The notes beneath the pieces were generated by a model. That model was given only the letters and a program-made list of their open reading frames with translations. It made no database searches and was not told the origin of the DNA. A program made the position numbers and the translations under genes. This document shows positions 1,414 through 7,890 of a stretch of DNA of 14,545 nt, in pieces (the stretch's first letter is position 1; every line of letters begins with the position of its first letter). The DNA comes from Pirellulaceae bacterium (GTDB taxonomy: Bacteria > Planctomycetota > Planctomycetia > Pirellulales > Pirellulaceae). The DNA lies in NCBI GenBank assembly GCA_020846515.1, contig JADLDX010000566.1, positions 1-14,545 on the forward strand. Direction: 5' to 3'.

Positions 1414-2754
1414 TTACTTTTTGCGAATCTCGTCCGCGATCGAAAAAGCGATCTCCATGGCTTGTTCGTAGTTCAAGCGTGGGTCGCAGTGCGTTTGATA
1501 AGCGGTGTGCAAGTCGTCTTCGGTCAGACCGGCGGCTCCACCGACGCATTCGGTGACGTTTTCACCGGTCAGTTCCAGGTGTACGCCGCCTAAGTGCGAG
1601 CCGACATCCTTGTGGATTTGGATGGATTGCCGGAGCTCACCTAAAACGTCATCGAAGCGACGAGTCTTGTGGCCGGAACTGGTTGAACGCGTATTGCCAT
1701 GCATCGGATCGCAGATCCACAACACTTGCTTGCCAGCGGACTGAATTGCCTCCAGCAACGGCGGTAACTTGGCAGCGATATGTGCGGCGCCCAGTCGATG
1801 GATCAGCGTGAGTCGTCCTGGTTCATTGCTCGGGTTGAGCACACGGGCCAGTTCACAAACTTCGTCGGCGGACATACTCGGACCGACCTTCACGCCAATA
1901 GGGTTGCGAATTCCTCGCAGGTACTCGATGTGAGCGCCATCCAATGCGCGCGTGCGATCACCCAGCCAAGGCATGTGCGTACCCAGGTTGTACCAGCCAC
2001 ATCCTCGGACGCTTTCACGTGTGAGAGCTTGCTCGTAATGCAAATGCAAGGCTTCATGCGACGTAAAGAAATCGACTCGGCGCAGTTCTTCTAACGGCGT
2101 ATTGGAGATGGCTTCGATGAAGCGAACAGCTTCACTCAGAGAATTGACCAATTGCCGATAGCGCGTGGATTCATCCGAACCGGCCGCAAACAGGAGCTTC
2201 CAGTTTTCTGGATGATGCAGGTCTGCAAAGCCACCTTGGCTGAGTGCACGAATAAAATTCAATGTCAGCGCCGAGCGTTCATAGCCGCGCAGCAATAATT
2301 GAGGATCAGCCCGCCGATGCGATTCCGAAAATCCACGACGGTTGATCAAGTCACCTCGATAGGTAGGTAACGTCACGCCATCTTGTTCTTCGACATCGCT
2401 GCTTCGCGGTTTCGCATACTGGCCGGCGATTCGGCCGACTCGAATAATGCGTTGACGTGAGCTGTAGACCAGTACCAGACTCATTTGCAACAAGACTTTC
2501 AGCTTGCTGGCGATTGGTTCCGCCTGACAGTCCTCGAAACTCTCCGCGCAATCACCACCTTGCAGTAACCAGGCTGTGCCAGCCTGGGCTTCGCCTATGA
2601 GCGATTTGAGATGATCGATTTCCCAACTGGTGACCAGCGGCGGCATCAAGCGCAGCACCGCCAGCACTTCTCGCAATGCCGACATGTCAGCATAAGTTGG
2701 TTGTTGATTTGCGTGGCGATCCTTCCAGGATTCTACGCTCCAGGTCTTCGTCAT
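1414..2754 (-). CDS. Class II 3-deoxy-7-phosphoheptulonate synthase (DAHP synthase)
   Basis: This enzyme condenses phosphoenolpyruvate and erythrose-4-phosphate, the first step of the cytoplasmic shikimate pathway to aromatic amino acids. The protein is 446 aa from the ATG at 2754, the normal length for the class II (plant/Mycobacterium AroG) type. Class motifs run in order: WSVESW and QQPTY at the N-terminus, LLQGGDCAESF (C69), GRIAGQYAKPRS, YRGD, FFTSHEALHL, DGAHIEYLRGIRNPIGVKVG, NEPGRLTLI, CDPMHGNT (H352), HLELTGENVTEC (E394) and CDPRLN (D424). C69, H352, E394 and D424 match the metal-binding set of the family. An in-frame TTG at 2760 would add two residues; I prefer the ATG because homologues typically begin close to the WSxxSW motif. 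No clear Shine-Dalgarno is seen. The gap to the upstream asparaginase gene is about 150 bp, so co-transcription is uncertain. No long N-terminal regulatory extension is present. Confidence 0.97.
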   Translation of the reverse strand: MTKTWSVESWKDRHANQQPTYADMSALREVLAVLRLMPPLVTSWEIDHLKSLIGEAQAGTAWLLQGGDCAESFEDCQAEPIASKLKVLLQMSLVLVYSSRQRIIRVGRIAGQYAKPRSSDVEEQDGVTLPTYRGDLINRRGFSESHRRADPQLLLRGYERSALTLNFIRALSQGGFADLHHPENWKLLFAAGSDESTRYRQLVNSLSEAVRFIEAISNTPLEELRRVDFFTSHEALHLHYEQALTRESVRGCGWYNLGTHMPWLGDRTRALDGAHIEYLRGIRNPIGVKVGPSMSADEVCELARVLNPSNEPGRLTLIHRLGAAHIAAKLPPLLEAIQSAGKQVLWICDPMHGNTRSTSSGHKTRRFDDVLGELRQSIQIHKDVGSHLGGVHLELTGENVTECVGGAAGLTEDDLHTAYQTHCDPRLNYEQAMEIAFSIADEIRKK

Positions 2755-2904
2755 GTCCAAGTGGTTTCGTCAGAGAGTTAATGGGTAGATAGTGGGTGAT
2801 GTTTGCTGCCATGCCAATCGTTCGGCGAGCTTCCGCGACTGCGCGGCGGCTCATTGATTGATTCGTCTGCGCGAGTGGCTTCAGCGAATGACCGACGGCA
2901 AATG

Positions 2905-3930
2905 CTATTCGCGAGCCAGTCGAATCTCGCGTCGGCCACTGGAATCGGCCAGGGCACGCGCGAGAGCGGCTGTGTTGAATTGAGCTGCGATGTTGTACTG
3001 CTTGTCGATAGCGATCAGGCCACCGCAATCGTCGGGCAGGATCTTTTGGATGATCGTATCAGCGGCTGCGGACAAGGATTGGTTGGCGTAACGCAGTCGA
3101 GCGGACAAGTCGGCCGCCACGTTATGGCGAATGAATTCTTCTCCGGTACCGGTACACGAGACTCCGCATGTATCGTTGGCGGCGTAGGTGCCAGCACCGA
3201 TCACTGGGCTATCCCCCACCCTGCCCCAGCGTTTGCCCATGAGCCCACCGGTGCTTGTGCCGGCCGCTATATTCCCTTGGGAATCGATGGCGACACAACC
3301 GACCGTGCCGAGATAACGCGGTTGTGCGATTTGAGCACCTTTCTTACGGTCTGCCTCGCGAGCCTGCCAACTCTTCCATGCACTGCGTTGTTCTTCGGTG
3401 ATGAAGTAATCCGCCGATACTAATTCCAGCCCGATACTTTCCGCAAACTTATCCGCGCCGACACCGCTGAGCAAAACATGGCGGGTATCGGTCATCACAC
3501 GGCGGGCGGCAGTGATGGGGTTTTTAGCACGCTTTACTCCGGCTACTGCACCGCAGGCCAAATTGCGTCCGTCCATGATCGAAGCATCCAGTTCGTGCTC
3601 ACCCTGCTCGTTGAGAACGCAACCGCGACCTGCATTGAACATTGGATCGTCCTCCAAGACACGGACGACGGCTTCGACGGCAGCCAGCGAGCTACCGCCA
3701 CCTTCGAGCAACTTGACGCCCACATCCAAAGCCTGGCCCAAACTTTCGCGGCGGGCTTGCTTGTACTGTTCGGTCCACTTATCGGGCTCGCCGCCTGCTC
3801 CACCATGCAAAATGATGGCGAAACGTGGCTTCGATGCCAAATTTTGTTGAGCTTGCATACGCGGAGTTGAGGTCATCAAAATGATTAGAGTAAGTAGGCC
3901 GATCGACAGTGGGTGGCTAGATTTCATCAT
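2905..3930 (-). CDS. Secreted isoaspartyl peptidase / plant-type L-asparaginase (Ntn hydrolase)
   Basis: The family hydrolyses L-asparagine and isoaspartyl dipeptides. The precursor self-cleaves into alpha and beta subunits at a Gly-Thr bond, and the freed Thr is the nucleophile. From the ATG at 3930 the protein is 341 aa. Residues 1-28 form a signal peptide (LSIGLLTLIILM core, then a small-residue MQAQ site), so it acts outside the cytoplasm. Motifs are LHGGAGG (41-47), MFNAGRG (97-103), LDASIMDG (114-121), the cleavage site LGTVGCVAID with T209 as predicted nucleophile, STGGLMGKRWGRVGDSP (substrate pocket) and CTGTGE (259-264). ATGs at 3948, 3930 and 3927 are all possible. The shorter ones put the lysine-hydrophobic signal peptide at the N-terminus, and no SD distinguishes them. 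The gene follows the NHL-repeat gene by about 30-50 bp and is probably in its operon. Confidence 0.93.
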   Translation of the reverse strand: MMKSSHPLSIGLLTLIILMTSTPRMQAQQNLASKPRFAIILHGGAGGEPDKWTEQYKQARRESLGQALDVGVKLLEGGGSSLAAVEAVVRVLEDDPMFNAGRGCVLNEQGEHELDASIMDGRNLACGAVAGVKRAKNPITAARRVMTDTRHVLLSGVGADKFAESIGLELVSADYFITEEQRSAWKSWQAREADRKKGAQIAQPRYLGTVGCVAIDSQGNIAAGTSTGGLMGKRWGRVGDSPVIGAGTYAANDTCGVSCTGTGEEFIRHNVAADLSARLRYANQSLSAAADTIIQKILPDDCGGLIAIDKQYNIAAQFNTAALARALADSSGRREIRLARE

Positions 3931-5877: not shown

Positions 5878-7890
5878 ATGTCGGAAACTCAACTATCGGC
5901 CGCTGGCGATGTGCCTCGTGGCGATGCGAGCGGTTTTTTTAAGTATATGAAGCACGATCTCTTATCGGGCTTTTTTGTTTTTCTGATTGCCCTACCGTTG
6001 TGTTTGGGTATATCGTTGGCCAGCGGTTATCCGGTGATGGCTGGGATCTTTACGGCGATCATTGGTGCGATTGTCACCACGCTGATCAGCAATTCCGAGT
6101 TGACGATCAAAGGTCCGGCCGCCGGTTTGATTGTGATTGCGGTCGGATGTATCGAAGACTTTGGTGGCAACGGCATCATCGACGGTTTTTCAGCCGCCGA
6201 CACCGCGGCCTATCGGGCGGCTTTAGCCGTCGGTGTGGCGGCCGCCATCTTGCAAATACTGTTCGGTATCTTCAAAGCCGGGATCTTGGGCGAGTTTTTT
6301 CCGCGAGCAGCGATCCACGGTATGCTGGCTGCGATCGGCATCATTATCATCGCCAAGCAGATCCCGGTGGCGCTGGGTGTTAGCGCCAAAGGCGAACCAC
6401 TGCACCTACTGGCGCACATCCCTCACTACATCTCGGAAGCCAATCCGGCCATCGCCCTGATCGGCCTGGTCAGTTTGGCCATTCTGTTTTCATGGCCTTC
6501 GGTACGTAAACGCATCAAGCCGATGGCCGCCGTACCGCCGCAGATTATCGTCTTAGTCGTGGCTGTCATTCTGGGATGGGGTTTGGATCTCTTGCACGAT
6601 CACAGCTATGTCTTGCAAGGGCATAAGTATCAATTGGGTGAGCAATTTCTGGTCAGTATGCCCAAGCAAATCTTGGGAATGTTCAAGGAAATCACGCTAC
6701 CAGACTTTACGGTGCTTATGGAACTGCGCGCCTGGAAGTGGGTGTTCATGTTCTTTATGATTGGTACGCTGGAATCCATCTTGAGCGCCAAGGCTATCGA
6801 TTCGCTGGACCCTTGGCGACGCAAAACGAATATGGACCGTGACGTGCTGGGCGTGGGCATCGCCAATTTGTGCTCGGCGATGGTCGGTGGTCTGCCGATG
6901 ATCTCTGAGATCGTGCGCAGTAAAGCCAATATCGATAATGGAGCCCGCACACGATTTGCGGATATGTGGCACGGCGTGTTCCTGCTGGTATGTGTGGCGT
7001 TGTTGCCCACTACATTGCACTTAATTCCTTTGGCAGCCCTGGCCGCCATGCTAGTGTATACCGGTTCGCGCTTGGCGCACCCCACCGAGTTTGTGCATGT
7101 GTATCACAGTGGTCGCGAGCAATTGATGATCTTCGTGGTCACGCTCATAGTGACCTTGGCCACCGACTTGTTGATCGGTATTGGTGCCGGGATTGCGCTC
7201 AAGTTCTTTATTCACGTCATCAATGGTGTACCACTGCACTCGTTCTTCAAAGCCTTCTTGAACACGGAGCAACTGGACGATAACACCACGCTGATTCGTG
7301 CCCAAGAGTCGGCGGTGTTCAGCAATTGGATTCCTTTCCGTCGTCAATTGGAACAGATCGCCTTGGTGCAACGACAAAACATCGTGCTCGATGTGTCGGA
7401 CGCCAAGTTGATCGACCACACGGTGATGGAAAAACTGCATGAAATGCAGCAAGAACTGGAGACCGAAGGTTTGAAGTTGGAGATCGTTGGCTTGGAAAGC
7501 CATCGTCCGTTAGCAGACCATCAGCAGGCGGCGCGAACGCGCGGCATGGCCCGTATGCGTCGCGTGACGGTGATCGCAGAAGAGCATTTGGAGGAGCAGT
7601 TTGAACGTGGATTTGTAGGCTTAGGTGCCACTGGATTTACCGTCATCGCCTGTCGCGGCGCCGGGCGCCGACAGGTGACCGAAAACTCCATCGCTACTGG
7701 CAGCAATATTCGCATCGAAGTCGTCGTGCCCTTTGACGTGTGCGATAAAATTCTCACATTTTTGCGTAAAGAGATGATGCCTCATCATCGAGTTACGGCG
7801 GTGGTCGAAACGATCGAAGTTGTTTTGGCTGAACAATTCCTGCCGCTGCCGGAACTGATCCAGCAGGGCAAGTCGCTAACGCATGTGTGA
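5878..7890 (+). CDS. SulP-family anion transporter with STAS and C-terminal PII-like domains
   Basis: A 670-aa inner-membrane protein. Residues about 20-450 are the SulP transport domain with many hydrophobic helices; landmarks are the early [19 protein letters not shown] segment, [28 protein letters not shown] (299-312), the [10 protein letters not shown] box (318-327) and [16 protein letters not shown] (337-352). Residues about 470-555 resemble a STAS domain ([19 protein letters not shown]). Residues about 561-652 resemble a PII-like/SbtB domain: [36 protein letters not shown] (583-599), a flexible loop, then [18 protein letters not shown] and a final strand VETIEVV. SulP proteins carry sulfate, bicarbonate or other anions. 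A PII/SbtB-like module points to control by adenyl nucleotides and makes bicarbonate an attractive but unproven substrate. No CGPxGC-type redox tail is present. It starts at ATG 5878 without an SD and ends 4 bp from the convergent aldolase gene. Confidence 0.9.

Follow-up and report, generated by a model that had tools for sequence, protein, structure and literature searches.

An SbtB-like PII domain behind the STAS domain of a planctomycete SulP transporter, probably a self-regulated bicarbonate transporter

A gene on the Pirellulaceae contig JADLDX010000566.1 (assembly GCA_020846515.1), whose full 14,545 nucleotides we call the window, encodes a SulP transporter that continues past its STAS domain into a domain of the PII superfamily. 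The gene occupies 5878..7890 on the plus strand (670 aa plus stop in the open reading frame list). The fusion itself is confirmed and its functional interpretation is partly supported. We favour, with somewhat more confidence than doubt, the reading that this SLC26/SulP anion transporter most likely carries bicarbonate and has an SbtB-like regulator built in; the fusion is probably a self-regulated bicarbonate transporter. We found no description of a SulP-STAS-PII fusion in the open-licence literature. Database domain tables do show the architecture, with the proteins entered as SulP family or sulfate permease-like.

The window protein was searched with Pfam, and all features given here lie on the plus strand. 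Residues 25-422 (5950..7143) are the SulP/SLC26 transmembrane domain (Sulfate_transp, PF00916, E 2.2e-56) and residues 468-540 (7279..7497) a STAS domain (PF01740), which together identify a SulP/SLC26 transporter; both exceed their cut-offs, STAS narrowly (23.6 bits against 22.6). In a full-length model the SulP part matches SLC26 and BicA structures, in an alignment (VIA-align) that covers residues 12-544 only. A linker with a conserved AAR motif follows (7498..7554), of which residues 543-556 have pLDDT below 50 in the full model, and then comes a PII-like domain of the SbtB/TTHA0516 type at residues 560-648 (7555..7821; PF00543, P-II, E 3.4e-11, 43.8 bits against a cut-off of 25). The first-pass annotation had placed this domain at residues 561-652, which is correct within a few residues. 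The flanking genes are of the sulfatase, DAHP synthase, asparaginase, NHL-repeat and DHDPS families.

The identity of the last domain was checked by sequence and by structure. A search of PDB sequences with the C-terminal 134 aa found TTHA0516 (2cz4, E 1.9e-13) and Cyanobium SbtB (4.5e-4). Modelled in isolation, the domain has the beta-alpha-beta-beta-alpha-beta order of the ferredoxin-like fold (mean pLDDT 83.5), which with the PF00543 match defines the PII superfamily, whose members form homotrimers that bind ligands between the subunits. Foldseek reported 215 matches to the model at E <=0.001, and the 50 listed were all TTHA0516, SbtB or CPII (best E 7.6e-12). Ferredoxin-like folds are common, and the C-terminal part could on that ground be a generic fold of this kind, or an extended STAS domain; we put this at next to no probability and reject it, given a PF00543 score above cut-off, the sequence match to TTHA0516 and SbtB and structural matches that are PII-like in 50/50 of those listed. 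The structural comparison with PII and SbtB folds proposed earlier therefore yielded a PII-like fold, and the order SulP, STAS, SbtB-like domain is borne out by profile, structure and tree.

With the PII part alone as query, 14 proteins were found, the window's own included. A profile search of the protein database gave 7848 relatives, and 118 of the 120 best ones listed bear PF00543 along with PF00916. SulP-family relatives are encoded at 455 places in the genome collection; the best 80 were kept, and a profile built from 15 fused domains scored a PII domain in 80/80 of them. By record title these best 80 of 455 loci are from planctomycetes, except one titled 'bacterium' (L132) and one titled Methylococcaceae (L129). 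The latter contig carries the fusion and clusters among planctomycetes in the SulP tree; its label is probably a binning error. Within the order of the window, 110/296 genomes have some relative of the PII domain at E 0.001, and in 63 of the 296 this relative lies in a frame of at least 500 aa, our proxy for the fusion. This tally leaves out two long frames, one a weak match (G238) and one stop-free (G165), and three frames of 324-388 aa. The 2935-residue frame in L222 is no more than a stop-free frame in which the PII match happens to lie. In a sample of the phylum, 42/392 genomes have a relative at E 1e-5, and a SulP profile confirmed fused copies, some of them highly divergent, in further families of both the class and the phylum. 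The search across planctomycetes that had been suggested thus shows the fusion to be widespread in Planctomycetota. The set examined below holds 124 fused loci (118 distinct), namely the 80 kept, 43 chosen from further genomes and the window.

Purifying selection acts on the PII domain, with dN/dS of 0.02-0.30 in 12/12 hand-picked close pairs. This range, PF00543 in 118 of the 120 listed relatives and the 80/80 kept loci argue that the fusion is not a chance one. Mean pairwise identity is lowest in the PII domain (0.48; STAS 0.61, SulP 0.72), which is degenerate in some lineages and missing in some relatives. Four unfused proteins (L019, L020, L022 and L032) fall among or next to fused ones in the SulP tree, a quick tree without bootstrap, which suggests that they have lost the domain. 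In the PII-domain tree, the 35 stand-alone rows and four reference fragments of the SbtB/TTHA0516 type stand on one side (100/96) and the fused rows on the other. Two canonical PII rows group weakly with one fused row (69/62), at a bootstrap that is not settled; we take their placement as a long-branch effect and the tree as leaving the root and the number of origins unsettled.

The ligand site differs from that of SbtB. Arginines R43 and R46 of SbtB, in the motif R43xxR46, are reported to hold the ATP phosphates, according to the excerpted text of PMC10117731. The motif is present in 2/118 distinct fused domains vs 19/35 stand-alone ones, and is incomplete in the window protein, where R598 and T601 stand at the two positions. 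The residue before it, SbtB position 42 (S42), aligns with R597 of the window protein and is R or K in 94/118 fused domains vs 2/35 stand-alone ones. R597 closes the G-A-G-R of residues 594-597 (7657..7668), located where the T-loop region begins; a G-x-G is retained in 99/118 distinct fused domains. In a 28-row alignment G594, R612 and E614 are invariant. The redox loop CGPxGC, which is found in some SbtB only, was sought through its CGP, and none occurs in the window protein or within the C-terminal 80 residues of any of the 124 fused frames. Given how rare R43xxR46 is and that R or K takes position 42 instead, the ligand or its mode of being held may differ from that of SbtB. The earlier proposal of direct adenyl-nucleotide control as in SbtB gains no support from these counts, nor from the T601 and the missing CGPxGC of the window protein.

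The same counts could also point to a domain that no longer senses a ligand and has a structural or assembly role, such as tying transporter dimers together or docking onto the DAB (DabA-DabB) carbon pump. The scarcity of R43xxR46 and the incomplete retention of G-x-G would fit such a role, as would the strong alteration of several lineages and the four near relatives that have no PII domain. Purifying selection in all 12 close pairs and the invariant R612 and E614 speak against it, and the R or K at position 42 gives the site the look of one replaced rather than erased. We consider a purely structural role unlikely and retain the SbtB-like regulator.

The 134-aa C-terminal piece found no close stand-alone relative at E 0.001 among 22 candidates in the protein database; stand-alone relatives turned up in the genome scans of the order and phylum. 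From the scan matches we chose 52 stand-alone loci, leaving out a number of weak matches and also L066, which by eye resembles a canonical PII with a GlnD-like neighbour. An SbtA gene adjoins the relative on the same strand in 44 of the 52 loci fetched, a raw neighbour count that uses a profile made from nine neighbours named Sbt_1 by Pfam. Of ten neighbours of stand-alone genes checked with Pfam, nine are Sbt_1 and the tenth comes from L055, a locus in which SbtA was looked for without a match; the SbtA of L214 was also confirmed by domain check. The count of 44 includes L221, where a single open frame (2303-3268) holds both matches. We rejected this as an SbtA-SbtB fusion: the intervening stretch looks frameshifted, and a frameshift has probably joined the two.

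Eight of the 52 have no adjoining SbtA (L047, L048, L055, L057, L218, L219, L226 and L230); among these, L218 is near dabA, and L226 and L230 are at contig ends. In L219 (5696-7842) a distant unfused SulP gene (29.6% identity to the window protein) precedes a stand-alone SbtB-like gene, with 87 bases between the two frames, so that SulP and the PII-like protein form a split pair. The genes in L047 and L048, among the best-scoring, lie by what look by eye like genes for magnesium-chelatase/MoxR-type ATPases, and neither locus has an SbtA or SulP match. No SbtA match was found in any of the 118 distinct fused loci.

The fused genes have other neighbours. Of the 104 distinct fused loci with at least 1.5 kb of upstream sequence, 70 have a dabB-like gene in the same orientation no more than 1.3 kb upstream. 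Where at least 4 kb is available upstream (84 distinct fused loci), dabA and dabB both precede the fusion in 59, and dabA occurs at any position of the locus in 64; six further loci have dab genes elsewhere than upstream, and 19, the window included, have no dab match. The typical order is dabA-dabB-dabB-sulP-PII, and Pfam confirmed the DabA (PF10070) and Proton_antipo domains in example loci. For comparison, a dabB match was found at 1/11 other SulP paralogues (flanks of 1.5 kb; two of the 11 share one contig), most of which end in an apparent carbonic anhydrase, verified by Pfam in one. One paralogue judged by eye to be of this carbonic-anhydrase type (L027) has a dabB-like gene upstream. 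Two unfused sister genes and a diverged fused one (L210-L212) show the order sulP-dabA-dabB-dabB.

In L214-L217, operons of the order dabA-dabB-dabB-sbtA-PII place an sbtA-sbtB pair in the slot of the fusion; since L214-L218 were picked for having DabA on the same contig, the share of stand-alone genes near dab genes is not a rate. Across the order, DabA is found in 55/63 genomes with the PII domain in a frame of at least 500 aa vs 89/233 others (Fisher p 1e-12, kinship ignored).

The window gene itself is outside such a cluster, as no dab match was found anywhere in the window. Its genome has dabA-dabB-dabB on another contig (C436), which ends 335 bases past the second dabB. Contig C564 of the same genome (L209) has two adjacent SulP genes, one checked to have a C-terminal carbonic anhydrase domain and the other apparently so by eye. 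No RuBisCO large subunit was found in this genome, which is 81% complete, and that argues against a classic autotrophic CCM.

The suggestion that the anion is possibly bicarbonate finds indirect support. Gene context favours it: stand-alone relatives lie by SbtA, the fusion is found in dab operons of many relatives and sbtA-sbtB takes the same slot. The substrate site does not. The ligands of HCO3- and Na+ in BicA, as given in section 13 of PMC13249358, are T69, D258, T262, G300, A301 and T302, and the window protein has A81, E299, S303, S343, E344 and I345 at these positions, so that 0/6 are identical. The bicarbonate assignment therefore rests on gene context and not on the site. The NCBIfam equivalog model for BicA (NF050096) scores the window protein at 127.2 bits, against a cut-off of 880.

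The protein might instead be a SulP for another anion (sulfate, chloride or a C4-dicarboxylate) under PII-like control, with the dab neighbourhood reflecting the homeostasis of pH or cations and not a supply of bicarbonate. The absence of the BicA ligand residues agrees with this, as do the database names (sulfate permease-like, C4-dicarboxylic acid transporter) and a match to the DauA model at 3.9e-50, though the last is far below that model's cut-off. Against it, the linked partners so far identified (DabA, DabB and SbtA as a swap) all belong to inorganic-carbon uptake; further recurring neighbour families lie outside that identification, and a sulfate link may be among them. We judge another anion improbable, if a serious contender, and continue with bicarbonate.

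For a bicarbonate transporter the following mechanism may be proposed. An SbtB-like domain would be fused behind the STAS domain in place of a separate regulator. It would bind a small cytoplasmic ligand and gate the transporter, opening or closing it by way of either the T-loop or the STAS domain; the gate would keep bicarbonate from leaking out or from being taken up when it is not needed. The model is SbtB, which inserts its T-loop into SbtA and responds to adenyl nucleotides (excerpts of PMC8352866, PMC10117731 and PMC10991534), and by analogy the fused domain could gate the SulP part. The fusion may also work jointly with the DAB carbon pump, as many relatives have its gene behind dabA-dabB-dabB in the same orientation. 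SulP transporters, BicA among them, form dimers, and SbtB forms a trimer (excerpts of PMC8438413 and PMC8352866), a mismatch that makes the geometry of the fusion an unsolved structural question.

A more far-reaching proposal, which we offer as speculative and rather doubtful, is that a third, covalently regulated arm of the DAB pump arose in planctomycetes. It would be a dimeric SLC26 transporter that senses its ligand at a rebuilt site of the PII-like domain (Arg at SbtB position 42, not R43xxR46) and serves, in bacteria lacking RuBisCO, as a valve for the bicarbonate that DAB produces; trimeric PII domains would cross-link the dimers, and the transporter would be interchangeable in the operon with sbtA-sbtB.

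As of 2021, SbtA was the only HCO3- transporter known to be controlled by a regulatory protein that interacts with it, according to the excerpted part of a review (PMC8438413). Should the favoured reading be true, PII control would extend to a second, unrelated transporter fold. The fusion would make it possible to test in a single chain how bicarbonate flow is gated by PII-like domains, and it would point to regulated inorganic-carbon uptake in a bacterium without detected RuBisCO, in an incomplete genome.

Several known systems resemble the fusion in part. TTHA0516 of Thermus thermophilus (2cz4) is the closest solved structure to the fused domain (36% identity over 99 columns), but is a stand-alone protein, annotated as hypothetical, that retains G-E-G-S-R-G-I-R. 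CPII of Thiomonas intermedia (5d4p, with ADP and bicarbonate bound), whose PII-like fold is among the structural matches listed, is also stand-alone, whereas the domain here is fused to SulP. BicA, a SulP-type Na+/HCO3- symporter, ends with STAS according to the excerpted text of PMC13249358, whereas here a PII domain comes after it. The SulP-carbonic anhydrase fusions are likewise SulP fusions linked to bicarbonate, and the window's own genome has one (Sulfate_transp + Pro_CA), but their C-terminal module is an enzyme and they occupy a separate side of the SulP tree. The genes of the DAB pump are neighbours of the fusion in many relatives; in the excerpted description the pump has one DabA and one DabB (PMC8438413), whereas here dabA and two dabB are followed by sulP-PII or sbtA-sbtB. 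The nearest parallel in regulation is SbtA-SbtB, in which SbtB shares both fold and sequence family with the fused domain, and the stand-alone planctomycete relatives adjoin SbtA; there, a separate small trimeric protein is made beside a bicarbonate transporter of another fold than SulP, whereas here the PII domain is covalently part of a SulP/SLC26 transporter.
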